Of a DNA stretch of 50,560 bases, positions 1-13,025 are shown piece by piece; positions within the stretch are counted from its first letter, which is position 1; each line of letters begins with the position of its first letter. Location: NCBI GenBank assembly GCA_017883235.1, contig JADGNY010000038.1, positions 1 through 50,560 on the forward strand, read 5' to 3'. This DNA is from Thermoanaerobaculia bacterium. Its GTDB lineage: Bacteria > Acidobacteriota > Thermoanaerobaculia > Gp7-AA8. The notes under the pieces are model-generated. The model worked only from the letters and a program-made list of their open reading frames with translations, made no database searches and was not told the DNA's origin. The position numbers were made by a program, and so were the translations under genes.

Positions 1-395
1 AAACGAAGCACGCGAGGGTCAAAACGAAGCACGCGAGGGTCAAAACGAAGCACGCGAGGGTCAAAACGAAGCACGCGAGGGTCAAAACGAAGCACGCGAG
101 GGTCAAAATGAAGCGCGCGAGGGTCAAAATGAAGCACGCGAGGGTCAAAACGAAGCGCGCGAGGGTCAAAACGAAGCGCGCGAGGGTCGAAATGAAGCAC
201 GCGAGGGTCAAAACGAAGCACGCGAGCATCGAAATGAAGCACGCGAGCATCAAAACGAAGCTCGCGAGGGTGAAAACGAAGCAACCGATCGACGAAACGA
301 AGCACGCGACCTTCCAAACGAAGCACGCGAAGATCGAAACGAAGAAAGCGATCTGCAAAACGGGGAAAGCGAGCATCGAAACGAAGCTCGCTCCG
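1..395. repeat. 21-bp tandem repeat array (cut by window start)
   Basis: About 18 head-to-tail copies of a 21-bp unit (AAAACGAAGCACGCGAGGGTC with its last base). The first copies are nearly identical; divergence grows from about base 210 and the last units (300-395) are barely recognisable. The period is seven codons, and all three forward frames are open in the consensus; one reads a lysine/arginine-rich heptad (T-K-H-A-R-V-K) from base 3 to a stop at 515. That frame has no convincing start or ribosome site and runs antisense into the gene at 406-813, so I treat the array as a minisatellite. The true left end is outside the window. Confidence 0.9.
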
Positions 396-405
396 CCCCT
401 CGTGC

Positions 406-813
406 CTAACAGTTCACGTACAACGTCGGCATCTGCTGCCCGCGGCGAAAGTACGCTGCGACCGATCCTCCGACGTACTCCGATCGGATCGATTCGTCCG
501 CCGGCCGGCCCGTGAACTCCCACCGATCGAGCTTGAGCTTCGCCGCGTCGCGCGTGGCGTACGGCGTTGAGCCGGCGTGATGCCACGCTTCGATCTCGTA
601 CACCTCGCGAACGACTCCCTCGAAGACCGCGAAGGCATACCGCGCTCCCTTACGCCGCTCACCGAGCTTCCACGTTCCTCGGGTCGCCTCATACAACTCG
701 AGCGGCGTCATGTCGTGGCGGTAGAGACGACTGATCCGGATCAGGAGTGCAGGGAGTCTTACCTCGACGGATCGAGCCCCCTCCGACGGCGGCCTGCGGC
801 TGACATTACCCAA
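406..813 (-). CDS. Detached C-terminal domain of a GIY-YIG family protein (LYEATRG domain)
   Basis: This 135-residue reading frame is closely related to the protein at 10899-11279: both share PALLIRI, LYRHDMTPLELYEATRG, EVYEIEAWH, RWEFTG and the ending YVNC. From memory of the family, this domain normally follows an N-terminal LEM-3-like GIY-YIG nuclease domain in one polypeptide; a matching N-terminal half lies at 2600-2980 on the same strand. The only upstream start is TTG at 813 and no ribosome site is visible, as expected for a gene piece severed from its 5' half. The domain's biochemical role is unknown to me. It may be translated, or it may be a remnant. Confidence 0.65.
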   Translation of the reverse strand: MGNVSRRPPSEGARSVEVRLPALLIRISRLYRHDMTPLELYEATRGTWKLGERRKGARYAFAVFEGVVREVYEIEAWHHAGSTPYATRDAAKLKLDRWEFTGRPADESIRSEYVGGSVAAYFRRGQQMPTLYVNC

Positions 814-837
814 TTCATTACCTAATTTATCTCGCTG

Positions 838-1051
838 TTACCCAATTCTTCCCACGCTTCGCCACCGCGCACTCCGTCCTCGCCCGAGGCACTCCACGGC
901 ACCGCTTCCCCTCAGGTTCTACAGAATGTGGCGAATCATGTCCACGCTGACGCCAGGACACTCTTTCAGGAGGTCCGCCATGCTGAAGGAACCGACCGTA
1001 CGGTCGATCGCCGCGAAGACGAGATTCGGTCTAAAGTCATCGAAGGTCGAT
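838..1051 (-). pseudogene. Remnant of a C-terminal winged-helix domain (Fic-type tail)
   Basis: Reading the minus strand from about 1050, one frame gives a winged-helix-like segment: FAAIDRTVGSFSMADLLKE, then CPGVSVDMIRHIL, a TAG stop at 921-919, and in the same frame NLRGSGAVECLGRGRSARW, ending at TAA 840-838. The pattern resembles wHTH tails at the C-terminus of Fic-family and related proteins. The TAG stands where a glutamine or arginine codon would be expected. There is no start codon and the piece abuts the stop of the DUF3037 gene. I read it as decayed; the family match rests on pattern recognition only. Confidence 0.5.
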
Positions 1052-1897
1052 CTACGCAAGATGTTCCGCGAGTTCCGCCGACAACGCCTCCACGTCTTCG
1101 TCCTCGTACATTTCGTGCGTCATCGGAATCTTGTGCAGGAGGTTCTTCGCTTTCTCGTATGCAGCAATGTGGCGCTCGATCGATGGGCGATGAAGAACGA
1201 GGTAAAGCTTCGAGACGCGCGCCTGAGGATCTTCCTCGAGCGCCGTCGTGTTCCCCAGCCAGCGAGCGGCCTTCTCCTGGATGCGAGCCGCGTGCGTGTA
1301 GTCCATGGAAAGCGGTTGGATGAGGTGCCAGCGCTCGTTCTGAAACGCATGTGGAAACTCGAGAGAGAAGCTGGTCGTCTCGAACTTCTTTGGCCTCAGT
1401 GCTCTCGTAACGGTCTGATCAAGACGCGGCCGCAATGCGGACCAGACCTGATCATCCGTGACGGTTTCCTCTTGCGTCCGCTGATATTGCGATGTGACAA
1501 AACGCTCGAACAGCGTGGCCAGGGTTCCCGGAAGGTCGTCCGAAAGCCCACCCATCGGTTCGCTTGCCTGGAAGCTCAGTCCCGCATCTCTCCACACCCG
1601 CGAGGCGATTCGGTCAGCGGTGATATCGCTCCGGTCCGCGACGAATAGCTGCGTCGATTCGAACATCGCGCGCCGTTCGTCCTCCACGGCTGCTTCGAAG
1701 TGCCCCAGCACCTGCTTGAACCGATCGCCTTCGAATCGAGCAAACGCCTTGGACAGTCTCTCGAAGTGATACTCGAGGCGCAGGTCCAGGAATGCTGCCT
1801 GTTCGGAGACGAGCAGCACGCCGATATTCAGGCACTCACCGGCGATCGGGTCGTGAGCGTAGCGCAGGACACAGAATGAATAGGGCTTCTTACTCAT
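1052..1897 (-). CDS. DUF3037 family protein
   Basis: A 281-residue soluble protein opening with MSKKPYSFCVLRYAHDPIAG followed by ECLNIGVLL, the N-terminal signature of DUF3037 (a tyrosine/arginine strand, then an N-[IV]-G-V loop). The rest is mixed alpha/beta with no catalytic motif I recognise. I chose ATG 1897: it overlaps the TGA of the upstream HipA-like gene (ATGA, 1897-1894) and has GGGGAG just upstream. An in-frame start at 1921 would add eight residues. DUF3037 genes are commonly found directly beside HipA-like (HipA_2) kinase genes, as here. The function of the pair is not established; it is often suspected to be toxin-antitoxin-like. Confidence 0.8.
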   Translation of the reverse strand: MSKKPYSFCVLRYAHDPIAGECLNIGVLLVSEQAAFLDLRLEYHFERLSKAFARFEGDRFKQVLGHFEAAVEDERRAMFESTQLFVADRSDITADRIASRVWRDAGLSFQASEPMGGLSDDLPGTLATLFERFVTSQYQRTQEETVTDDQVWSALRPRLDQTVTRALRPKKFETTSFSLEFPHAFQNERWHLIQPLSMDYTHAARIQEKAARWLGNTTALEEDPQARVSKLYLVLHRPSIERHIAAYEKAKNLLHKIPMTHEMYEDEDVEALSAELAEHLA

Positions 1898-2663
1898 GAC
1901 ACACTCCCCAGGATCTCCCACTGAAAATCATCGCGGTGCGCCTGCACCGCCGTGAGGTGCTCTCGCACCCGATCCATCCACATCTCCCAACGTTCCGGAA
2001 TCCAGGACATCGAACTGCTGAGAACCGCGTCGAGCATATCGTCTAGGCTTGCGAACAGCACGGACCAATCCACGTTTGCTTGGTCGAGCCTACCTCGAAG
2101 AGATGTTGGCTCGAAATCCCAACCGGGACGCGGTAGGCGACTGCTGAGCTTCCGACCACAGGGTAGAGAAAGCTGAAGCAATCCGCGAAGTCGATCGCCG
2201 CCAGAGAACCACCCACGACGAAGCAGTTTTCGGCGATTTGACGCCGGTCGGGATTCTGAACCAGCATGTCGAACAGATAGATGCGAGCGGCCTGTGTCAA
2301 CTGCTCGGCGTTCATCCTTCCGAATACAGGCGGAGATAGGCTTGACCCAAGGCTCCGTGCGCCAACAGCGATCCGAGGCGGCGCGATCACATGGGCCTGA
2401 GCTCGGAGCAAGTCTGTGAAATCCTCCGTGATTTCGATCAGCCCGACGTCGGGAGTGAGAACCCCGAGCTCACGAGCGAGCAGGTTGCCGACGGCTTCGT
2501 TGAAGAGATGCTGTTCCGTGATCTCCGGAAGCCCGATTGCCTTGACGAAGAATTCCGCGCGGCTGTCGGACTCCTCGGAATCGCGATAGCAACTAAGCCT
2601 CAGCACGCGTAGTAGAACGCCAGCTCCGACAGCCGGCGTCGCCCGCTCTGCACGCTTCGCCAT
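1894..2663 (-). pseudogene. HipA-like kinase (HipA_2 type), frameshifted
   Basis: The frame from ATG 2663 carries kinase-fold motifs of the HipA_2 group: FFVKA (nucleotide-binding lysine), LFNEAVGNLLARELG, and the catalytic stretch LVQNPDRRQIAENC followed by AAIDFADCFSF. It runs out of frame near base 2097. A second frame continues with RGRLDQANVDW and WIPERW and stops at 1894. Joining them with a one-base backward shift at 2097 gives about 256 residues, the usual family length. The site is not slippery, so I favour a real mutation or an assembly error over programmed shifting. GTG 2606, overlapping the GIY-YIG stop, is an alternative start. The last codons are coupled to the DUF3037 gene by ATGA. 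Confidence 0.7.
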
Positions 2664-2980
2664 CCGCGCGCCTCGTTGGTCAGATCATCGAATCCGAGGA
2701 GATCAATTACCGCCGCCTCGATCCGAAACGCCGTCTCCTCATCGCGCAACGCGTGCGCCAGGATGTCGATACGCGGCTCGATCCCAGCCTCACTCAGCTC
2801 CCGCAACACGGCGACCTTTCGCGACTCCGCTGATGCGCTGAGATGCGCCAACGCGCGCGATCCTTGTCCCTTTCCGACGTAGAAGGGCTTTTCGTTCCGT
2901 GGGTCGACGTAGAGATAAACGTAGAAGCCGAGGCGTTCGGCAACCTCGGGACGGATGTGCAGATCAATCATTACACTCAT
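2600..2980 (-). CDS. GIY-YIG nuclease domain protein, C-terminally truncated
   Basis: A 126-residue protein with a LEM-3-like GIY-YIG domain (COG3680 type): YVYLYVDPRNEKPFYVGKG at residues 20-38, a conserved arginine/histidine segment (SRALAHL), and the metal-binding glutamate in RIEAAVIDLLG (Glu88). It stops right after SELAFYYA. Full-length relatives, as I remember them, continue from this point into an LYEATRG domain. That second half is found at 406-813, beyond the HipA-like and DUF3037 genes. Start ATG 2980 lies 30 bp after the stop of the large membrane protein gene; ATG 2971 is also possible. Whether the nuclease half is active alone is unknown. Confidence 0.8.
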   Translation of the reverse strand: MSVMIDLHIRPEVAERLGFYVYLYVDPRNEKPFYVGKGQGSRALAHLSASAESRKVAVLRELSEAGIEPRIDILAHALRDEETAFRIEAAVIDLLGFDDLTNEARGWRSVQSGRRRLSELAFYYAC

Positions 2981-3010: not shown

Positions 3011-6000
3011 CTACGCGACCTCTCCGCGGAGCCGTTCCCCTCGGATGAAGCCCTCGAGAAACGCTCCGAAGAACAGTCCCAGCGCGGTCCAGCTCAGAAT
3101 CATCGTGGGGTACACGTCCCAACAAAAACGCGCCTTCTGCGGTGGTTTGATCAAATGCCATCGCACCATGACCGTCCCCAGATCCACCTGTGCCGTCTTC
3201 GGAACGACCCCCAGGAACACTGATTCTGCCTGACCTGCTGCCATGCCGTCGAAGTGTGCAACCTGCTGTTTGTGTCGCGAGATCGTGTTCGACTCGAAGA
3301 TCAACGAAAAGATGAGCGCGAGTGCGAACGACTGTGCAAGCGCGAGGGCAACTATTTGCTGCACCTGAGCATGTCTCTGCTCCAGCATCGGATCCTGCGC
3401 GGCGTCGCGATCATCGTCGTGTCGGAGAATCTCCCGCCTGACAAAGTACTGAGTCGTCAAGAAAGCGAGCACCATCAAGAGCACTATCGTGCCGTCGGTG
3501 GCGTACATAGGGAACGTATAGCTGTGATCGAATTCGACCAGCAGGACGAACGGGACGATGATGAGGCGAAAAAGAGACGGCAGAATACATTGATAGAGAT
3601 ACTGCGGCGGCAAGTGCTTTTCTCCGGCGTTCTCGTTTTTCTTGGGCTCTCTGGAGTACCTTAGCTTTTCGGTGATCCGCCACAGGCGGCGAGTCAGAAG
3701 GTAGAGCGTCGCCCCGACGATAGCCGCCGCGTAAGCAAGAAACAGAATTCCCTCGAAGTGGCGACCGGCTTCACCGCCAAACGCATGAAGCAAGGCGGCA
3801 ACGATGAAGGGCAATGCGGTGAAGAGGATGACACTTGGGAGATTCGTTGCCACAAAATACGCCCGCTTGAACCATGTTTCCCATCGGTCATTGAGCGCCG
3901 ACGTCAGATGATCGACGTCGAGCTCGGAGGACATCCAGTCAACGTAGAAGCGCTCGAAATTCTCTCGCTGCTCCGCAATTGCCGGTGGTGCAGCTCCGAT
4001 CAGCCCCAAGTCCGCGGGCGTAGGCACTTGGCGGCCCGAATACCGCTCGCGCATATATGTGTCGATGTGACCGTCGACGAGGCTCTCCTCCCTAACGATC
4101 ATCTGTGCGAACCGCCGCTGCCGCTCCTGTTCTTCGGTCCGGTTCTCCGGCTCGCTCGCGAAAAGAGCCCAGAACGTGTCCGGCTTTTTAGTTTCGACGC
4201 AGCGCCTAGGGGCATCGACATACCACTCTTTCGTACCGTTGAACACGTCGCGCCAGTAGCCGAGCAGCACGCGCAGAAGGATCTGCTCCGGGGGTTGCAG
4301 CGACCTCTCCTTCGAGAGGAGGTCTTCGATCCGCTGTACTACGTCGCTGGCGTGACGCATTGCTCGATGCCGCTCCTCGAATTGCTTGATTGGGAGACTC
4401 ACGTAATGAGTGACTTCGGCACGCAACTGAGAGCAGTCTTCCTCACACAAGTCGGCCAGCGACCGCCTTCCCGACGGATACTCGGGATCATCGTCGATGG
4501 CATCGTGGTGACGGACATGCGTCTCGCTCGCGATCCGGTCGAGCTTGACGAGCAACTTATGAAACCCGCCTTCCAGGCTCGCATCATCAGCCCCGGGTCG
4601 CACCTTCGAGGCTTCTCCAACCATCGCGGACCAGATAGTTTCGTCACGCGCGGCGAGCTCAAGATAGAACTGCAGTACGTTTGCGAGGGCGTCGAGCGTG
4701 TGACTGCTCCGTGAACCGGCAGCAGTCTGATGCTTCGCGATGTCGGGCAGCAGCAGGCCGATATCCTCGACAAACCTATTGATGCTCGCTTTCCCGTCGC
4801 CTGTCGCACGGACACTGGCAACATGGCGCCGGAAAAGCGAGACGAGCCCGCGGTCGACATGATCATCGATCCGGGACAGGAGATGGTCAAAAATCGCCTC
4901 GCTCGGACCACGCAATGTGACCTGATATAATTGGACAGCGAAATCGAAATTGGGATTTTTCGCGCGTGCGCGGCGAAGATTTAGATCGACCTCCCTTGAT
5001 ATGTGTCGCGCCAGCCTGAGACTGACGGACTCGTCAATCATCGCAAGGATATACCCTGGAAGATCGCTAGGGTCGCGCTCTCTCAGATTCGAGGTGTGTG
5101 CGAAGGATCGTCCGCTGCGGTATTCGACGAACTCCTCGAGATCGGCGTGCACAGCTTCCGCTGCCTGGGACGGAAGGATCGAAAGGAGCTTCCAGAGACG
5201 CTCCTGCCGCTCCTCATCACTCACCACAACACTCGAAACTGAGTCGAGGCGCTTCCTGAGCAATGGGTATCGTGTAACTTCGCGGGCCTCCTGCGATGAA
5301 GCACGCAATTCAGCCGCGAGAATACGCGTCAGTAGTAGCTGACACGGCGCATCGAGTTTGGTCCACGCGGCGTACGATGATTCCAAATTTCGCTGAAGAT
5401 CATTCGCCGAAGCCGCTGCCGTGATGACGCTCTCCGAGAGCGAAGAGGGCAGATCGCCACGTGCACCCGCAACAGGGTTGTATTTCGGGTCGAAAACCTT
5501 TTGAATATTTCGTGCCGTCGGCTCTGCGAGCAAGATCGCTACCGCGTGATCAAGATCGCGTTCATAGACCTGCTCGTCAGCGGCGATATGAAACTCAAGC
5601 AATCGGTCATGCATGCGGTCGACTAGAGCCACGAGTAGCGTTCGCAGACACGCATTGGCAATCACGCGTCGGTGGAGCGCGACGAAATCGTTCGAAGGAA
5701 CGTCGTTCCTCAGTGTTTTCAACGCTCCATCGAGGCCTTTCGCCGCCCACTTCTTGCCACCGGCTAGAATGGTTGGAAGGCTGCGGAAACATCCTTCGGC
5801 GAGGCCGGGATTCGACCAGACGGAATGCAGTTGGTCCAAGTTCCCAAATAACACTTCCAGGGCGCCATGACAGGCCGATTCTTCGTGACTGTTGGCTTCT
5901 GCCGCCTCGACATCAGCGGCCGCGACGACGTTCCCGGCAGCTGTGATGATCGCGATCGTCGCGCGCGATTCAGCGTTACCGTCCGCGGCTGTCCCGACAA

Positions 6001-7081
6001 GCGTCAGAGGAAGGCGTTCCACGGCTCGAGCGATCACTTTGTCAAAGCCGCGCGGGCTCGCGTCACGACGCATCATCACTGAAATCGTCGTAAAGACGCC
6101 CTCCCGGAAGCGTGCAAACGCTGCACGAGAAACACCTAATCCGTCGGCTTCCGCACGATCGATGGAAGCAGCCTGCGTCAGGAAGCCGACATAGCTGTCG
6201 AGGACCGCCGGCGTCGGTGCAGCTGTTTGCCGCCAGATCGCCGGCAGCGCGCGAAGATACGCGACACGCGCGTCGAAGTCCTCGTCGGGTGGTTGGCGCA
6301 GCTTCTCGAAATACTTGACCTGCGACTCAGTATCTCCCGCGATCGCGCCCACCAACAGGTATCGCCGTCGCCGCCGAGCAACGTACCGTTTATTGATCTC
6401 TGCATCGCCTTCTCCGTCATGATTGGTCCACAACGGCGCCAGACACTTGGGACCAGGCAGAATCTTCAGAAGTGCGCCGAGCCCTTCTAGGGCAATGTCG
6501 CGCGTCGCGGGAGCTCCTATGTCGATAACCGTCTGCAGCGCTGGACTCATGCTGTTCCGCAGCACATCTACCAGAGCGCGCGGCGGCGTAGCATTGGTGA
6601 GGCCGAGGTGGATGGCGAGCTTGCAAACCACCTGCTGCTGCACCGTGCCGTCGAGCACCCATCGGGGCAATCGCTCGGCAAGAGTGGAGAGGGCTCCCAT
6701 CGAAGCGGCGTCGTCATCAGCGTGTAGTCCTAGCCGGAGCAAGGCCTGCGAAGCGGCCTTCACTAGGGTGCGGCGGTCGCTGCGACGCGCCCCGTGATAT
6801 GCGTTCGCGATCGCGGTAAGCGCCGGAGCTCCATCGAGTATCGTCGACCCGATACGTGCATAATCGATGTGTGGCTCGAACACTGCCTTGAGCCGATTGG
6901 CAACGAGCGGAGTGGTCGCCGCCTTGATTTCCGACTCGTATACACCGATCGCCACCTCCGGCGCGTCCTGCAGCGCCGCGCGAATGATGTTTCCGGACTG
7001 ATGGAGATTCTGTCTTTCCGCAGGATTAAGCACCTGAAGAGAATGCGCAGCCAAACGACCCATGGTTTCACCCGAAGTCAT
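3011..7081 (-). CDS. Very large helical protein with six C-terminal membrane segments
   Basis: This 1356-residue protein is unlike any family I recognise. Residues 1 to about 1075 are almost entirely helical, with HEAT/ARM-like spacing of leucine and alanine and many charged helices. No P-loop, protease, nuclease or TIR-like motif is visible. From about residue 1077 there are six hydrophobic stretches, near 1078-1100, 1110-1131, 1162-1182, 1193-1213, 1237-1259 and 1325-1346, with a polar loop of about 65 residues before the last. Start ATG 7081 is preceded by GGAGG at ideal spacing (GTG 7087 is less likely). It is the first large gene of a minus-strand run leading to the GIY-YIG and HipA-like genes, with an XRE regulator upstream. 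A membrane-anchored scaffold or defence effector is a guess. Confidence 0.85.
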   Translation of the reverse strand: MTSGETMGRLAAHSLQVLNPAERQNLHQSGNIIRAALQDAPEVAIGVYESEIKAATTPLVANRLKAVFEPHIDYARIGSTILDGAPALTAIANAYHGARRSDRRTLVKAASQALLRLGLHADDDAASMGALSTLAERLPRWVLDGTVQQQVVCKLAIHLGLTNATPPRALVDVLRNSMSPALQTVIDIGAPATRDIALEGLGALLKILPGPKCLAPLWTNHDGEGDAEINKRYVARRRRRYLLVGAIAGDTESQVKYFEKLRQPPDEDFDARVAYLRALPAIWRQTAAPTPAVLDSYVGFLTQAASIDRAEADGLGVSRAAFARFREGVFTTISVMMRRDASPRGFDKVIARAVERLPLTLVGTAADGNAESRATIAIITAAGNVVAAADVEAAEANSHEESACHGALEVLFGNLDQLHSVWSNPGLAEGCFRSLPTILAGGKKWAAKGLDGALKTLRNDVPSNDFVALHRRVIANACLRTLLVALVDRMHDRLLEFHIAADEQVYERDLDHAVAILLAEPTARNIQKVFDPKYNPVAGARGDLPSSLSESVITAAASANDLQRNLESSYAAWTKLDAPCQLLLTRILAAELRASSQEAREVTRYPLLRKRLDSVSSVVVSDEERQERLWKLLSILPSQAAEAVHADLEEFVEYRSGRSFAHTSNLRERDPSDLPGYILAMIDESVSLRLARHISREVDLNLRRARAKNPNFDFAVQLYQVTLRGPSEAIFDHLLSRIDDHVDRGLVSLFRRHVASVRATGDGKASINRFVEDIGLLLPDIAKHQTAAGSRSSHTLDALANVLQFYLELAARDETIWSAMVGEASKVRPGADDASLEGGFHKLLVKLDRIASETHVRHHDAIDDDPEYPSGRRSLADLCEEDCSQLRAEVTHYVSLPIKQFEERHRAMRHASDVVQRIEDLLSKERSLQPPEQILLRVLLGYWRDVFNGTKEWYVDAPRRCVETKKPDTFWALFASEPENRTEEQERQRRFAQMIVREESLVDGHIDTYMRERYSGRQVPTPADLGLIGAAPPAIAEQRENFERFYVDWMSSELDVDHLTSALNDRWETWFKRAYFVATNLPSVILFTALPFIVAALLHAFGGEAGRHFEGILFLAYAAAIVGATLYLLTRRLWRITEKLRYSREPKKNENAGEKHLPPQYLYQCILPSLFRLIIVPFVLLVEFDHSYTFPMYATDGTIVLLMVLAFLTTQYFVRREILRHDDDRDAAQDPMLEQRHAQVQQIVALALAQSFALALIFSLIFESNTISRHKQQVAHFDGMAAGQAESVFLGVVPKTAQVDLGTVMVRWHLIKPPQKARFCWDVYPTMILSWTALGLFFGAFLEGFIRGERLRGEVA

Positions 7082-7323
7082 GAACACCTCCGTGGCGTAG
7101 ACGACACGCGATAATCACGAATGCTGAAGGAATGCAGTAATCGTACAGCAGTTACGATCAAACCAAGCAACTGTGAAATCGCAGAGCTTCACGTTGGTAC
7201 TCGTTGAAAACCAGGACTTGATCGTTGCGGACGCGCGAGCGTAGAGGATGTGAGCGAGCCCGCGCAGGTTGCGGTTAACAAGAGCCCGTTCAGAAAAAGG
7301 ACAAAGCATGACGCGTGACCGGG

Positions 7324-7628: not shown

Positions 7629-7733
7629 TCAACCCTGCTTGCGGCGGGACCACCGCCGGGCGAGACGCCGCGGCGGGAGCAGGCGAGACGCCCGCTCTCC
7701 GGTCATGGTGGCGCGGTTCGAATCGAAAACGAC
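7629..7733 (+). repeat. Dispersed GC-arm repeat, right half only
   Basis: This matches the right half of the elements at 8825-9065 and 9781-10018: a lead of TCAACCCTGCTTGCGGCGG, the arm CCACCGCCGGGCGAGACGCC (here lacking one C), GGGAGCAGGCGAGACGCCCG, then a tail ending GGTTCGAATCGAA. The left arm and central part are missing. It fills most of the 272-bp gap between the XRE gene and the small reading frame at 7857. Confidence 0.8.
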
Positions 7734-7856: not shown

Positions 7857-7937
7857 ATGAACGAGCACAAACAGATTGCCGCCAAACTGATCGATGACCG
7901 AGGCAACGGGCTGCTCGCGGTGAAGGAGTTGGCATGA
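7857..7937 (+). CDS. Small reading frame (26 residues) coupled to mntA
   Basis: ATG 7857 opens a 26-residue frame, MNEHKQIAAKLIDDRGNGLL followed by AVKELA, whose TGA (7935-7937) overlaps the ATG of the MntA gene as ATGA. The AAGGAG ribosome site of mntA lies inside it. It could be a genuine leader peptide that couples translation, or the stub of a larger protein. There is no family match I can name. Confidence 0.35.
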   Translation: MNEHKQIAAKLIDDRGNGLLAVKELA

Positions 7938-8269
7938 GCGTTCAGCCGCACCTTGCTCTCGACATCGACCGTGCCGCGATCGCGGCATTCTGTCAAAAGT
8001 GGCAAATCAAAGAGCTTGCTCTGTTTGGTTCGGCCCTGACCGACGAATTCCGACCTGACAGCGATGTCGACTTTCTCGTCTCCTTTGACGAACCAGAGCC
8101 TGACTGGGGACCTTGGATGGGCCGCTGGCACGACATGGAAGAGGATCTCGAGCTGATTGTCGGCCGTAAGGTTGACATCGTCGAAAAGGGTGCCGTGGAA
8201 AGAAGCAGAAACTACATCAAGCGGCGCCACATCCTGGAGCATCAAAGAACGATCTATGTGGCGCGATGA
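7934..8269 (+). CDS. mntA: MNT-domain nucleotidyltransferase antitoxin
   Basis: A 111-residue minimal nucleotidyltransferase. The GSX10DXD signature is present: Gly32-Ser33 in LALFGSALTDEF and Asp44/Asp46 in DSDVDFLV. In characterised HepT/MntA modules the MNT protein adds AMP residues to the HEPN toxin and neutralises it. Start ATG 7934 has AAGGAG six bases upstream. The gene overlaps the following HEPN gene by 14 bp, the usual layout of these pairs. Confidence 0.9.
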   Translation: MSVQPHLALDIDRAAIAAFCQKWQIKELALFGSALTDEFRPDSDVDFLVSFDEPEPDWGPWMGRWHDMEEDLELIVGRKVDIVEKGAVERSRNYIKRRHILEHQRTIYVAR

Positions 8270-8603
8270 GGGATACCTCCTCGACATGCTGATCGCTGCT
8301 CGAGAAGCGGCAGGGTTTTCCGCCGCACTGACCTTCGAGGCTCTGGAGGAGAGCCTGCTGCATCAGAATGCGATACTCCACGTGCTCCAGAAAATCGGTG
8401 AGGCCGCCACCAAGGTCTCACAGCAATTCAAAGACGAGCATCCGGAGATCGACTGGGTCGACATCATCGGAATGCGTCATCGCCTGGTGCACGACTATCG
8501 CAATATTGATCTCACGAAGATCTGGGAATCGGTCCAGTCGGGTGTTCCCAGCCTGATTGACCAACTGGAGCGTCTGGTGCCCCCGGAAGCTCAGGCGAGA
8601 TGA
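8256..8603 (+). CDS. hepT: HEPN-domain toxin, HepT (DUF86) family
   Basis: A 115-residue all-helical HEPN protein. The RX4HXY RNase motif is intact: Arg74, His79 and Tyr81 in GMRHRLVHDY. EALEESLLHQNAILHVLQKI and IGEAATKVSQ are typical DUF86 segments. HepT proteins are RNases that the MNT partner inactivates by AMPylation at the motif tyrosine. ATG 8256 is chosen because the family begins with an R-D-x2-Y-L-x-D-M start; the frame is open back to a TTG at 8157 inside mntA. The stop overlaps the next gene as ATGA. Confidence 0.92.
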   Translation: MWRDEGYLLDMLIAAREAAGFSAALTFEALEESLLHQNAILHVLQKIGEAATKVSQQFKDEHPEIDWVDIIGMRHRLVHDYRNIDLTKIWESVQSGVPSLIDQLERLVPPEAQAR

Positions 8604-8812
8604 ACCTCGAGCGGATTTCGATCGATCCGGCGGTCATGAACGGGCAGCCGTGCGTTCGGGGAACGCGTCTGACCGTGAAGCGTGTGTTGCACATCCTTGC
8701 CGAAAGCCCGGATCGCGAAGAGATCAGGAGGGACTATCCGCGGCTGCATGAGGAAGACATCCGGCAGGTATTGCGCTACGCCGCCGCCAGGCTGGAGGAA
8801 GACCATCGCTGA
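8600..8812 (+). CDS. DUF433 antitoxin-like protein without its usual partner
   Basis: A 70-residue DUF433 protein: ISIDPAVMNGQPCVRGTRLT, then the helix-turn-helix-like LHILAESPDREEIRRDYP and EEDIRQVLRYAAARLEED. DUF433 genes are usually followed by a PIN-like DUF5615 toxin gene. Here no such gene follows; the stop is trailed within about 15 bp by a dispersed repeat element, suggesting loss of the partner. It overlaps the hepT stop by ATGA, forming a three-gene coupled operon with mntA-hepT. Confidence 0.85.
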   Translation: MNLERISIDPAVMNGQPCVRGTRLTVKRVLHILAESPDREEIRRDYPRLHEEDIRQVLRYAAARLEEDHR

Positions 8813-8824
8813 CCGGGTCACAAG

Positions 8825-9065
8825 TGGAGAGCGGGCGTCCGCGCCTGCTCCCGGTGGGCGTCTCGCCCGGCGGTGGGGAGTGAGTCGAACGTAACCGTTG
8901 GGTAAGAGCGGCGGCCTTTCCATCCGCGTTTTTCAGGTTCAACCCTGCTTGCGGCGGGACCCACCGCCGGGCGAGACCCTTCGACTCCGCTCAGGGCAGG
9001 CTGCCGCGGCGAGAGCAGGCGAGACGCCCGCTCTACGGTGATGGTGGCGCGGTTCGAATCGAATC
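8825..9065. repeat. Dispersed GC-arm repeat element, complete copy
   Basis: The element has two inverted arms of about 50-60 bp flanking a less GC-rich centre. Left arm 8826-8878 contains GAGAGCGGGCGTCCGCGCC and GGCGTCTCGCCCGGCGGTGG; the right arm (8951-9036) is its reverse complement, interrupted by an insert CCCTTCGACTCCGCTCAGGG. The centre contains GTCGAACGTAACCGTTGGGT and CTTTCCATCCGCGTTTTTCA. A tail resembling that at 7703-7733 follows. No gene is seen between 8813 and 9142. No transposase is present, so this is MITE- or REP-like in style. Confidence 0.85.
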
Positions 9066-9142
9066 GGTTCCGCGACGGGAACGGCCGCTTCTCGCGCCTT
9101 TTGTTACTCCTCCAGTGTGTCGCCGCTCACGAACCACCTCGA

Positions 9143-9365
9143 TCATGTATGGGTCTCGAACAGCTCTCGCGGTAGTTGGGATTGCCGGATGATGGACTGA
9201 AGGGTGCCGATGCGGCAGTTCCCTGTGATCGGGAACCGGAACCGTGATCGTCGAATCGGCGGCGCGTTTCTGCATCACGACGTGACTGCCTCGACGGCGG
9301 ACCTCGCGGAATCCTTGTGACGAAAGGAGCGCGCAAACATCTGCTCCGGAGAGAACCCGGAGCTT
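9143..9365 (-). pseudogene. hicA: HicA-type toxin, frameshifted
   Basis: The minus strand just after the hicB stop encodes a HicA dsRBD-like toxin: RVLSGADVCALLSSQGFREV, RRRGSHVVMQK with the catalytic histidine, and STITVPVPDHREL. An extra base near 9215 then shifts the frame; the continuation RIGTLQSIIRQSQLPRELFE is in the next frame and ends at TGA 9145-9143. No ATG or GTG is visible at the start, which overlaps the hicB stop. The toxin is probably inactive unless the extra base is a sequencing error. Confidence 0.75.
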
Positions 9366-9591
9366 AGCCAGCCGAGACCTCCAGCGCCGTCACATACATC
9401 TCGCCCCTCAGCCGTCCTTCGACTTCCGAGGCGTCCGCGCTTTCGATGAAGAGCTCCACGGCCTCTCGGAGGTTGGTTGACGCTTCCTCAACCGAGCATC
9501 CCTGGCTGGCAACATCAAGCTCGGGGCAAAGAGCGACGTAGCCGTCGTTCTCCCGGTAGATCATCGCTGTAAATCGTCGAACGTCATTCAT
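9364..9591 (-). CDS. hicB: HicB-type antitoxin
   Basis: A 75-residue HicB-fold protein: FTAMIYRENDGYVALCPELD, VASQGCSVEEASTNLREAVE and LFIESAD. ATG 9591 has AGGGAG eight bases upstream; the frame is open to a TTG at 9660, which adds a non-conserved leader. It lacks an added DNA-binding C-terminus, so it is the short form. HicB binds and blocks the HicA mRNA interferase; here hicA follows immediately but carries a frameshift. Confidence 0.88.
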   Translation of the reverse strand: MNDVRRFTAMIYRENDGYVALCPELDVASQGCSVEEASTNLREAVELFIESADASEVEGRLRGEMYVTALEVSAG

Positions 9592-9780
9592 CGGGGGTCT
9601 CCCTGTCGATTCATTCGCTTCACGCTGCCACCGCTGCATTTCAACGACGAGAGTCTCCAATCTGCCCGCGATCCGCCCCCCATCCTTCCAGACGATGCAA
9701 TGCCGGGATGGGTAGCACCCGCGAGTACCCGGAAAGACTTCGTGCCAGACGGGAGGAAGGCCGTCCCTGATTGGTATCTA

Positions 9781-10018
9781 AAGGAGAGCGGGCGTAAGCG
9801 CCTGCTCCCGGCGGGTAGCCTGCCCTGAGCGGAGCCGAAGGGTCTCGCCCGGCGGTGGGGGGTGAGTCGAACGTAACCGTTGGGTAGCGACGGCGACCTT
9901 TCCATCCGCGTTTTTCACGCTCAACTCTGCTTGTGGCGGGACCCACCGCCGGGCGAGACCCTTCGGCTCCGCTCAGGGCAGGCTACCGCGTCGGGAGCAG
10001 GCGAGACGCCCGCTCTCC
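9781..10018. repeat. Dispersed GC-arm repeat element, second complete copy
   Basis: This has the same architecture and centre as the copy at 8825-9065 (centre GTCGAACGTAACCGTTGGGT, CTTTCCATCCGCGTTTTTCA). Here both arms carry the CCCTGAGCGGAGCCGAAGGG insert, once in each orientation. A short partial arm (GGCGAGACGCCCGCGCTCCC) follows near 10050. The stretch 9592-9780 and the stretch 10019-10113 show no gene I can support. Confidence 0.85.
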
Positions 10019-10113
10019 TCGGCGAGGTGTTTCGGCGGTCCAAGCACGGGCTGGCGAGACGCCCGCGCTCCCAGGGGGGCTTGCGATTACGCCGGTGCGG
10101 CCTCGTCGTCTGA

Positions 10114-10344
10114 ACGCGCTCCATAGACGATTACCACCGCGACTTCCTCAAAACGGTCCTCAAAGCGGTCATCGGCCCCACCTGGACGGACGAAGATGAC
10201 GCCATCCGGACCGGCACGCGCTACCTCGGCTTTCGGCGAACCGGACCGAAGACTTCAAAAACTTTCAAGTCGGCCATCAACGGACTCCTGCGTCAGGATG
10301 AGCTCGAACGCGACGGCCGCCTCCTGCGGAGACCCAGCCAATGA
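10114..10344 (+). pseudogene. C-terminal fragment of a larger protein (winged-helix-like tail)
   Basis: An open frame without a start codon encodes about 76 residues: DYHRDFLKTVLKAVIGPTWT, DDAIRTGTRYLGFRRTG, then FKSAINGLLRQDELERDGRL and RRPSQ. The shape (helix, GFRRTG strand, helix, basic wing) resembles winged-helix tails at the C-terminus of large defence or helicase-type proteins. An in-frame TGA at 10111-10113 closes it upstream. I read it as the residue of a deleted gene; the parent family is uncertain. Confidence 0.45.
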
Positions 10345-10390
10345 GGTCACGCAACGATCGAGGGATCTACGAGCGGGCGTCAATCGATGA

Positions 10391-10717
10391 GGCGCCACGA
10401 GGGTACTTCACGATCTTGACGGGCTCGCGATCCGCCTCACCGATGAGCGGCTGGGCCACATTCTCGAGCATCCCGAAATGGCGGAGATGGGGCTCGCCAT
10501 CGAAGAGACCCGGCAAGAACCCGAGAGAGTGGTGCAATCGATCAGCGATCCCGAGGTGCGCCTTTACTATCGCTTCTATTTTCGGACTGTCATTGGCGGA
10601 AAGTTCCTCTGCGTGGTAGTGAAGATGGGTGAGGCTGGCGCGTTCGTGCTGACGGCGTACCTGACCGACCGCATCAAGAAAGGAGAGCGGCTATGGCCGA
10701 TTCGCAAAAGCACCTGA
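10391..10717 (+). CDS. Putative RelE-like toxin paired with DUF2283, start codon disrupted
   Basis: The conserved body reads LDGLAIRLTDERLGHILEHP, then IEETRQEPERVVQSISDPEV, LYYRFYFRTVIGGKFLCVVV and FVLTAYLTDRIKKGERLWP. I remember this pattern from small nuclease-like proteins encoded just before DUF2283 genes. The frame has no ATG, GTG or TTG ahead of the conserved N-terminus; the first ATG (10478) would delete about 25 conserved residues. An ATG at 10387 lies one base out of frame, so a single-base indel is likely. The 3' end overlaps the DUF2283 gene by 25 bp. Confidence 0.6.
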   Translation, partial: GATRVLHDLDGLAIRLTDERLGHILEHPEMAEMGLAIEETRQEPERVVQSISDPEVRLYYRFYFRTVIGGKFLCVVVKMGEAGAFVLTAYLTDRIKKGERLWPIRKST

Positions 10718-10899
10718 AGATCTGGTACGACGCGGAGGGGGACTACATCGAGGTGATCTTCGACCAGAAGGCGGGATACTTCCGCGAAACCGAGAATGAC
10801 CAAGTGATGGAGAAGGTCGACGAGGAGGGGAATGTCCTCGGTTTCTCGGTGCTCCGGGTCAGCGCCATGAAGGAGAAGCCGCTCGACGTGGCGCTGTGA
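10693..10899 (+). CDS. DUF2283 family protein, probable antitoxin
   Basis: A 68-residue acidic protein: LKIWYDAEGDYIEVIFDQKA, EKVDEEGNVLGFSVLRVS. This is the compact beta-rich DUF2283 fold, typical of small proteins encoded next to toxin-like genes. ATG 10693 is preceded by AAGGAGA and lies inside the end of the upstream gene; the stop overlaps the next start (TGATG). The tight overlaps suggest a co-translated three-gene unit. Confidence 0.85.
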   Translation: MADSQKHLKIWYDAEGDYIEVIFDQKAGYFRETENDQVMEKVDEEGNVLGFSVLRVSAMKEKPLDVAL

Positions 10900-11279
10900 T
10901 GACACGGGACCCGCTCAAGCCGGTTGATGTCAGCGTCCCAGCGCTCCTGATCCGGATCAATCTCCTCTACCGCCACGACATGACGCCGCTCGAGTTGTAC
11001 GAGGCCACCCGAGGGACGTGGAAGCTCGGGGATCGGCGCAAGGGAGTGCGCTATGCCTTCGCGGTCTTCGAGGGAGTCGTTCGGGAGGTGTACGAGATCG
11101 AAGCATGGCACCCAGCCGGCACGACGCCTTATGCCACGCGCGACGCGACGAAGCTCAAGGTCGATCGGTGGGAGTTTACGGGACGACGCGCCGACCAGTC
11201 GATTCGCTCGCAGTACGCCGGCCGCGCCGCATATTTCAGGCGAGGGCAGCGGATGCCGACGGTGTACGTGAACTGTTAG
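10899..11279 (+). CDS. LYEATRG-domain protein (stand-alone copy)
   Basis: A 126-residue protein, clearly a paralogue of 406-813 over its whole length (YRHDMTPLELYEATRGTWKL, WEFTGR, YFRRGQRMPTVYVNC). Unlike that copy it has a normal ATG start, at 10899, overlapping the DUF2283 stop. In the GIY-YIG family I associate it with, this is the C-terminal half; here no nuclease half precedes it. Function is unknown. Its coupling to a toxin-like/DUF2283 pair suggests recruitment to a toxin-antitoxin-type operon or a hitch-hiking fragment. Confidence 0.75.
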   Translation: MTRDPLKPVDVSVPALLIRINLLYRHDMTPLELYEATRGTWKLGDRRKGVRYAFAVFEGVVREVYEIEAWHPAGTTPYATRDATKLKVDRWEFTGRRADQSIRSQYAGRAAYFRRGQRMPTVYVNC

Positions 11280-11353
11280 ATTGATCGCAATAGCGTCTCA
11301 CCTTTCTCACGGGCATCTGCGCCTGTCAGTCCGCGCGGCGTATAGTTCCATCC

Positions 11354-12547
11354 ATGGCGATCTCGACCCCGGCACTCGTTAATCCCAGTCTCCTGATCTG
11401 GGCGCGCGAGCAGAGCGGCTACGCGACGGAGACGGTCGCCAAGCGGCTCTCGGTCAAGGTTGAGCGCTTTCTGGCGTGGGAGCGCGGGGACAGAAAGCCC
11501 ACCGTCCGTCAGGTCGAGGCGCTCGCCAGGTTCTACCATCGCCCGTTCGGCCTGTTCTTTCTTCCACAACCTCCGGAATTGCCTCCACTGGCCGCGGAGT
11601 ATCGGCGGCTCACCGGCGTGACTCCGGGTGTGGAATCGCCGGAGCTGCGTCTTGCGATCCGTACGATGTCGTATCGACGGGAGACCGCTACCGAGCTTTC
11701 TGAAGAGCTGGGGACCTCGCTGCCTTCTTTCCGGCTCACCGCGCATCCTGGCGAAGACGCCAACGTCGTTGGGGCGCGCCTGCGCTCGGCGCTCGGTGTG
11801 TCAATCGAAGAACAGCTGTCCTGGAAGAACGAATGGCAGGCATGGTCCCGATGGCGAGACGCGGCGGAATCGGTTGGAGTGCTCGTTTTTCAGTTTCCCA
11901 AGGTCCCACTCCCGGAAGCACGCGGCGTATCGCTGTTGCGCTTCCCAACGCCCGCAATCGGTGTGAACAGCAAAGAGGGCTCGGCAGGGGCGCGTATCTA
12001 CACGCTTGCGCATGAACTTGCTCACCTGGCACTTGCCGCCGCTCGCGAAGAACGGCCGGCGCTTCACGAAACGCGCAACGCGACGGACTGGGCGCGGCTC
12101 GAGCGCTTCGCCGAGGAGGTGGCAAGCGCGGTGATCATCCCGAGGGAAACCCTCTCGCTCATGTTGCGCGGGGTTTCCGTTACCCGCGACGCGTGGACGG
12201 TCGATCAGGTGCGGTCGTTGGCGCGCCGGTTCAAGGTGACGCCGCTGGCGATGGCTACTCGTTTGCGAGCCGAAGGCCAGTTCACATGGACGGGATACAA
12301 GCGTTGGCGAGAGGCATGGGACCGATTCGTGAAGTCGCTCCCGCCACGCTCCGGCGGTTTCGCATCGCCCATCGACAAGACGCTCGGAAGAGCGGGGAGG
12401 CCCCTCGTGCAATTAGTGATCGAGGCGATGGACGCCAACCGCATCACAGCCGCGCAGGCGTCGCAGTATCTCGACCTTCGCTTTGACCATTTCAATGGAC
12501 TGCGCTCGGAGTTGCGCGAACGCAACGCGGTCCACTCCGAAAGCTGA
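11354..12547 (+). CDS. XRE-ImmA/IrrE fusion: HTH regulator with zinc metallopeptidase
   Basis: A 397-residue protein. Residues 10-70 form an XRE-type HTH (YATETVAKRLSVKVERFLAW, ERGDRKPT). Residues about 150-300 are an ImmA/IrrE (COG2856) peptidase with the zinc motif HELAH at 220-224 and a downstream FAEEVASAVIIPRE segment that supplies further conserved residues. In characterised relatives the peptidase cleaves or releases a repressor; in toxin-antitoxin settings such fusions act as the antitoxin or regulator. The next gene, a DUF4411 PIN-like protein, starts 4 bp after the stop, a known gene pair. Confidence 0.92.
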   Translation: MAISTPALVNPSLLIWAREQSGYATETVAKRLSVKVERFLAWERGDRKPTVRQVEALARFYHRPFGLFFLPQPPELPPLAAEYRRLTGVTPGVESPELRLAIRTMSYRRETATELSEELGTSLPSFRLTAHPGEDANVVGARLRSALGVSIEEQLSWKNEWQAWSRWRDAAESVGVLVFQFPKVPLPEARGVSLLRFPTPAIGVNSKEGSAGARIYTLAHELAHLALAAAREERPALHETRNATDWARLERFAEEVASAVIIPRETLSLMLRGVSVTRDAWTVDQVRSLARRFKVTPLAMATRLRAEGQFTWTGYKRWREAWDRFVKSLPPRSGGFASPIDKTLGRAGRPLVQLVIEAMDANRITAAQASQYLDLRFDHFNGLRSELRERNAVHSES

Positions 12548-12551
12548 CGCC

Positions 12552-13025
12552 GTGTATTCTCTCGACACCAGCTTCTTCATGGACTGGCAGGCCCGATACT
12601 ACCCACTCGACCTCTTCGCCAGCCTGGAAGACCGTATCGAGCAGCTCATCGACCAGGGAGAATGTCGCGCCGTCGAGCTTGTGCGAGAAGAGTTGCATGC
12701 CGTCGGCACACCGGACATCAGGTCTTGGACCACGAAGCACACCACGCTCTTTGTAAGCCTGTCATCGGATGTCCAGCTCGAGGCGGCTGCGATCCAGTCC
12801 ACGTATCCCGAACTGATGGATCCGAAGGGTCTGCACGACTCGGCAGACGCATACGTGATCGCGCTCGCGAAGAGTGCGGGAGGAATTGTCGTCTCGCAGG
12901 AGACCTCCGCAGACGAGAAGCATCGGCCGAGGCAGAGTTACTACATCCCCGACGTGTGCCGAAGCCTCGGCGTTCCCTGCATCAATTTGCTCGGCATGAT
13001 GCGCCGTGAGAAATGGACGTTTTGA
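12552..13025 (+). CDS. DUF4411 PIN-like toxin
   Basis: A 157-residue protein from GTG 12552: VYSLDTSFFMDWQARYYPLD at the N-terminus carries the first PIN-like acidic residue. VELVREELHAVG, DSADAYVIALAKSAGGIVVS and IPDVCRSLGVPCINL follow, matching the DUF4411 pattern ending in W-x-F. PIN-like proteins are predicted metal-dependent RNases. It lies 4 bp after the XRE-ImmA gene, so the pair is most simply read as a type II-like toxin-antitoxin unit. The frame is open upstream into the previous gene, but the family start fits the GTG. Confidence 0.85.
   Translation: MYSLDTSFFMDWQARYYPLDLFASLEDRIEQLIDQGECRAVELVREELHAVGTPDIRSWTTKHTTLFVSLSSDVQLEAAAIQSTYPELMDPKGLHDSADAYVIALAKSAGGIVVSQETSADEKHRPRQSYYIPDVCRSLGVPCINLLGMMRREKWTF

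Follow-up and report, generated by a model that had tools for sequence, protein, structure and literature searches.

Can a defence gene that was broken by foreign DNA still serve its host, and if so, through which of its parts? This question is raised by a contig of 50,560 bases, which was analysed as a whole and is called the window here. Running towards position 406, close to the contig end, its minus strand carries in this order a 1358-aa gene (7087-3011), a GIY-YIG half (2980-2600), a HipA-like gene, a DUF3037 gene, a Fic tail, and a half containing LYEATRG (813-406). A sequence-only reading had interpreted the two halves as one nuclease gene split by insertion of a kinase cassette. Beyond this, the present analysis assigned the halves to PD-T4-3 and the gene pair between them to PDC-M66, and found a second sensor half, C2, elsewhere in the window (Table 1).

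Table 1. Positions of the gene halves, of the DNA between them and of neighbouring features in the window.
Feature	Position	Strand	Description	Basis
N-half	2600..2980	(-)	GIY-YIG nuclease part of a PD-T4-3/CMoRE-type gene, 126 aa	Pfam, profile, PDB, alignment
C1	406..777	(-)	sensor half of the same gene as N-half, homologous to L003 122-245	PD-T4-3 profile, alignment
C2	10896..11279	(+)	further sensor half, standing alone (127 aa; corresponds to L003 123-245)	
Intervening DNA	778..2605	(-)	1828 bases	junctions from alignment to L003
PDC-M66A	1894..2606	(-)	HipA-like kinase, apparently 5'-truncated and frameshifted	profile, Pfam HipA_2
PDC-M66B	1052..1897	(-)	DUF3037, full length, intact	profile 2-274/281, E 1.9e-49; Pfam DUF3037, E 1e-13
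Fic tail	844..1032	(-)	Fic-family C-terminal tail, ~63 residues	60% identical to G009 Fic protein
1358-aa gene	3011..7087	(-)	directly upstream of N-half	
Tandem array	1..391		21-base unit in ~17 copies with similarities of up to 87%, ending 15 bases from C1 stop	
Toxin-antitoxin-like run	7934..13025		nucleotidyltransferase and HepT-like pair, DUF433, DUF2283, XRE/IrrE-type, DUF4411	
Dispersed repeat near C2	8860..9034, 9842..10016; related pieces 7653..7727, 9785..9859			

PD-T4-3 was reportedly discovered by Vassallo et al. in 2022. According to PMC12923530, this family is CMoRE, a 5hmC/5ghmC-dependent type IV restriction enzyme whose C-terminal domain binds 5hmC/5ghmC and whose GIY-YIG domain is the cutting part; for activity, single chains have to form a tetramer. 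In the same paper, 274 of 274 CMoRE systems found are single-component, most carry a negatively charged loop that covers the active site, which is not a strict criterion, and the sensor is presented as having no homologues. The respective PDB entries are 9U75, 9U7U, 9U7Z, and 9U8D.

Both halves in the window were matched by the PD-T4-3 profile of PADLOC (256 positions), N-half at 6-127 (E 9.7e-22) and the second half at 128-252 (E 1.5e-12), and also by phrog_5356 (255 positions), at 3-125 and 133-249. These complementary matches bear out the sequence-only reading in placing both in one family. The same holds for their order on one strand and their adjacency in one protein of relatives: in pairwise alignments to L003, a joined 245-aa protein of genome G010 from the same taxonomic family as the window genome, residues 5-125 of N-half corresponded to residues 1-121 (78 of 121 identical) and residues 13-135 of the second half to residues 122-245 (70 of 124 columns identical), with no L003 residue missing between them and no overlap. 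Complementary halves on one strand and in the correct order lie far beyond chance. Trees of the nuclease and sensor domains were built separately. N-half grouped with L003 (94/92) and next with L004 (84/85), while C1 and C2 formed a pair (100/99) joined next by L003 (91/72) and then by L012 (93/89); the next neighbours beyond L003 were not the same and support was moderate, the nearest neighbour being L003 in both trees. Because both halves adjoin the same joined protein in separate trees, the view that N-half and C1 are parts of what was once one gene, parted in this lineage, is supported.

The nuclease half retains the intact GIYxY-YIG motif (YVYLYVDPRNEKPFYVGKG) and matched Pfam LEM-3_GIY-YIG (E 8.8e-10) as well as PDB 9u75 (E 7e-17). 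Its homology stops at codon 2608-2606, followed by two foreign codons (Cys, stop). Profile and structures match both halves, and an N-terminal GIY-YIG domain with its motif and a putative C-terminal modification-sensing domain are present as in PD-T4-3/CMoRE. The window differs in its second free sensor copy and in N-half, which does not have the negatively charged loop of CMoRE, eight residues of the acidic-loop region being absent in the alignment to 9u75. It also differs in that the two domains do not share one polypeptide and lie in two open frames 1828 bases apart, and the locus was therefore filed as a split variant and not as an ordinary member. N-half had a single significant match in the genome; in the search for a second N-half, the three further rows all had E 0.5-0.9.

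The frequency of the joined form was determined in draws of 396 genomes from the own phylum, 392 around L004 (Planctomycetes), and 387 around L005 (Verrucomicrobiota), using sensor thresholds of E 0.001 in the own-phylum draw and 1e-4 in the other two. Since the genome searches scored no more than about 11 first-look candidates in each genome, misses are possible. Sensor matches were obtained in 5, 9, and 3 genomes, respectively, giving 19 places in 17 genomes. Thirteen of these lie in one frame with GIY-YIG and four are separate (C1, C2, L013 of G108, and L065 of G882), two of them in the window itself, so the case raised by the sequence-only reading, that the halves are naturally separate in relatives, is not what was found. 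Of the remaining two places, L063 is joined but without the start of the GIY-YIG domain and L061 is cut by a contig edge. Joined relatives comprise L003, L004, L005, L012, and L014 in addition to plasmid and phage copies. The whole PD-T4-3 profile matched 9 of 396 genomes, namely three with joined genes, the window, G108 (sensor only), G142 (a nuclease fragment with in-frame stop), and G100, G277, and G302, which have GIY-YIG proteins with weak profile matches and different C-terminal parts. One plasmid search gave 165 records with a sensor match. Nine plasmid regions from this and further searches were inspected together with one phage (joined); they comprised five distinct joined or formerly joined copies (Alteromonas, Citrobacter, E. 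coli, Rhodococcus, and Salmonella, the latter ending early in the sensor), two fused or tandem forms (Arcobacter and Pimelobacter, respectively), and two separate ones (Synechocystis and Embleya). No split was seen among the 17 viral loci obtained with the sensor query, where every frame had at least 228 aa; querying viral contigs with N-half gave one locus, L071.

Alternatively, separate nuclease and sensor genes could be ancestral at this locus and the joined relatives could be fusions, which would agree with the four separate places, with sensors linked to HNH and located beside GmrSD (see below), and with the other C-terminal parts carried by the three weakly matching GIY-YIG proteins. However, N-half and C1/C2 nest beside L003 inside the joined proteins, and their complementarity is exact, which makes this explanation very improbable.

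As to what lies between the halves, the sequence-only reading was right on the HipA-like and DUF3037 genes, while its winged-helix remnant turned out to be a Fic tail with a stop and the kinase is apparently broken. The PDC-M66A profile aligned at 37-176 of 270 positions (E 2.6e-20) in the frame of ORF 2663-2043 and then, more weakly, at 202-265 (E 0.0013) in the frame of ORF 2181-1894, so that a frameshift apparently occurred between about 2166 and 2100. Compared to the homologues L066 and L067, about 20 start residues are missing at the junction, and a possible GTG is located at 2606-2604. PDC-M66B likely starts with the ATG at 1897, which shares bases with the stop of M66A; the start of the listed ORF is GTG 1921. 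Close copies of this DUF3037 gene were found among 100 genomes of relatives only in the window itself, and on plasmids there were 4 distant records. The Fic tail matches residues 368-430 of the 431-aa G009 Fic protein and is interrupted by an in-frame stop at 919-921. From their sequences, both M66A and the Fic tail appear to be dead. At this locus the presumed toxin (kinase) would be broken and the presumed antitoxin (DUF3037) retained. NCBIfam gave no match for the six proteins searched.

PDC-M66 corresponds to HipAD/DS-6, for which PMC13092281 and PMC12548924 describe the kinase as required for defence and DUF3037 deletion as toxic. The window shares the gene pair, its order and overlap, and a full-length DUF3037 partner gene, but instead of a complete HipA-like kinase there is an apparently truncated and frameshifted one, and the pair lies inside another defence gene. 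Similarly, in Retron-Sda1, according to PMC12548924, HipA/DUF3037 replaces the usual retron effector and the module works alone; there, the same module is lodged within another defence system, yet without dividing a gene of the host at a codon boundary as in the window.

The claim of an inserted kinase cassette did not stand in its simple form, since the DNA between the halves is a mosaic of a broken HipA-like gene, an intact DUF3037 gene, and the Fic tail, with no target-site duplication. The longest word common to both junctions has 7 bases, a length that 1463 out of at most 5000 random pairs also attained (pairs less than 200 bases apart were skipped), and is attributable to chance. A second sensor half 10 kb off also indicates a history of more than one insertion. 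Misassembly as the source of the intervening DNA or of C2 would be conceivable in a genome assembled in 246 contigs, and C1 adjoins the 21-base tandem array at the end of the contig. Yet a chimera would not leave complementary halves ordered on one strand, and C1 and C2 differ by 16% and are therefore not one sequence placed twice, so an artefact is hardly probable. The tandem array itself is the likely reason for the contig end. On the other side of the locus, the 1358-aa gene has hydrophobic stretches near its C-terminus, as judged by eye, and no above-threshold match in Pfam, NCBIfam or PADLOC.

The position of the break in the protein was derived from the predicted model of L004 (pLDDT 77.9), where it falls at residue 125, after helix 117-124 and before strand 135-139 and inside neither element. 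The flexible linker of this model (101-108, pLDDT < 50) ends about 17 residues earlier, so N-half would comprise the nuclease together with the strand and helix that open the C-terminal part, which are thus split from the sensor core. According to PMC12923530, the main chain of Y127 contacts 5hmC in CMoRE. Numbering of the 9u75 chain and of the paper is offset by 5 (Y17/Y19 = chain 22/24), and by this offset Y127 maps to what appears to be the last Tyr of N-half; a free sensor would therefore be without this 5hmC contact. By prediction, the sensor half alone folds as a complete domain: the C2 model (pLDDT 86.5) superimposed on the CMoRE sensor (9u75_A, residues 119-257) with Z 15.3 and an rmsd of 2.9 over 123 aligned residues.

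N-half and C1 (or C2) could come together again to form a two-subunit enzyme that cleaves modified DNA. Both halves are open, on the same strand, and in the original order, the motif is intact, the break lies between structural elements, and GmrSD, an enzyme that according to PMC4619093 consists of either a single chain or two, provides a precedent. However, the break beyond the linker parts a strand and a helix from the sensor core, all 274 published systems are single-component, and C1 would have to be translated from a TTG downstream of dead genes, so we regard a working two-piece CMoRE as rather unlikely. The TTG at 813 is the sole start in the C1 frame (406-813), as the sequence-only reading had noted, but the homologous part begins at 777 and not at 813. 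The alignment hints at a remnant of a 'GRxPL' segment upstream of both C1 and C2, which is too short to judge.

Whether the sensor was kept apart from the nuclease can be assessed by comparing C1 with C2. On the DNA level the two are 84% identical (312 of 373 columns), with the similarity ending at the stop codon, and C2 begins within one codon of the C1 start in L003 numbering, at a distance of ~10 kb. Given this common 5' boundary, either the split is older than the duplication, or the edge of the core domain guided both breaks; the sensor proteins of pSYSA, Arcobacter, and G108 begin at about the same edge. Across 120 codons there are 58 base differences, distributed 11/8/39 over the codon positions, corresponding to dN 0.086, dS 0.573, and dN/dS 0.15, and both frames are without stops or frameshifts. 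As the differences are mostly in third positions, the sensor stayed under selection. For C1, this constraint may predate the split; a period of evolving on its own is required for C2 only. When the changes were polarised with the relatives, 7 fell on C1 and 12 on C2 with 3 unclear; those of C2 include two residues lost at an SV that is usually conserved. The start of C2 and the stop of a DUF2283 gene overlap, and further neighbours are a short unassigned frame on one side and an XRE/IrrE-type gene on the other. In the surroundings of C2, the dispersed repeat listed in Table 1, used as a 175-base query, had at least 55 matches in the genome (40 of the 203 candidates scored).

These data have to be weighed against plain gene death, in which stepwise illegitimate recombination in a defence island would have left N-half, C1, and C2 as recent functionless fragments. 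The adjoining pieces look broken (5' end and frame of M66A, stop in Fic), the TTG of C1 is a weak start, and the fragment of G142 and the plasmid copy L039, which terminates early within the sensor, demonstrate that such genes do break. In contrast, the dN/dS value and open frames of C1 and C2, the coupling of the C2 start to the DUF2283 stop, and free-standing sensors in unrelated genomes are not expected for dead fragments; we consider gene death unlikely, though a serious contender. Further points against a useful sensor are that the locus decays if M66A and the Fic tail are dead, that C1 has no start other than TTG, that C2 has more derived positions than C1, and that a free sensor would have to act without the Y127 contact, in a family whose enzyme is a tetramer of single chains. 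Taken together, we lean slightly towards the sensor being still useful in some form, which includes the two-piece enzyme.

Sensor domains in other contexts are relevant for this question. On Synechocystis pSYSA (L072:3223-5390), a free sensor gene annotated as hypothetical is located 47 bases after a two-domain DUF262/GmrSD gene, an Arcobacter plasmid (L038:2429-3172) encodes a sensor before HNH in one protein with a HipA-family gene nearby, and a Pimelobacter plasmid (L052:2057-3946) encodes a 629-aa protein starting with two tandem sensor domains and having a sub-threshold PD-(D/E)XK match (PF14281, 17.3 bits vs. a cut-off of 22.3). Besides pSYSA, free-standing sensors are L013 (G108), L065 (G882), and, by partial match, one of Embleya. 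L013, L065, and the HNH-linked L038 group together on long branches in the sensor tree (88/81), so an older line of free-standing sensors may exist besides C1/C2. We found no report of sensor homologues or of a split CMoRE in the open-licence literature.

In a structural search with the C2 model, CMoRE ranked first (Z 14.4-15.3), and its next neighbours are, weakly, YTH/ASCH/EVE readers: the 47 rows listed after CMoRE comprised 35 YTH, 4 ASCH, and 8 others (2p5d, 7s9v, 1wmm, 2eve, 7s9w, 6n0s, 5j3e, and 6yex, EVE-type and THYN1 included) with middling Z values of 4.3-6.1, which may reflect a common arrangement only. Among the YTH rows we counted 4r3h and the Mmi1 entries, which we take to be YTH-domain structures although their titles do not contain the word. 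Foldseek likewise gave weak matches to EVE/YTH/ASCH-type folds (E 0.012 and higher). The structural list agrees with a similar set of nuclease partners, as EVE domains are fused to HNH, PD-(D/E)XK, GIY-YIG, or GmrSD according to PMC7641849, but no sequence link is shown.

In the reading we prefer, foreign DNA would have come to lie between the codons equal to L003 residues 121 and 122, and the gene would then yield two polypeptides, i.e. the nuclease half, with the strand and helix that come before the sensor core, and the core sensor half, the latter being present a second time, as C2, in a region rich in toxin-antitoxin genes at a distance of 10 kb. Since C1 and C2 diverged under strong protein constraint, we take the sensor to be still made and used, presumably as a free protein binding 5hmC-type modified invader DNA and possibly guiding the nuclease half in trans. 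Of this, common origin, exact complementarity, the second copy, and the constraint are computed results, and the order of events, expression, binding of modified DNA, and action in trans are inferences. More broadly, and only tentatively, since we hold it to be less than an even prospect, the CMoRE sensor could be a mobile PUA/EVE/YTH-like reader of modified bases, occurring on GIY-YIG, HNH, and possibly PD-(D/E)XK nucleases, beside GmrSD, and also free. The window would then show its release from the nuclease, with one copy beside the severed half and another in a toxin-antitoxin operon.

The 2026 publication presents CMoRE as a single-chain enzyme and its sensor as having no known relatives. 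A natural split, a free sensor under selection, and sensors on other nucleases provide material by which sensor action detached from the nuclease and membership among the EVE/YTH readers become testable. In addition, the locus clearly illustrates how a defence gene can be broken up by parts of other such genes, a situation in which annotation tools would count two partial matches or none.
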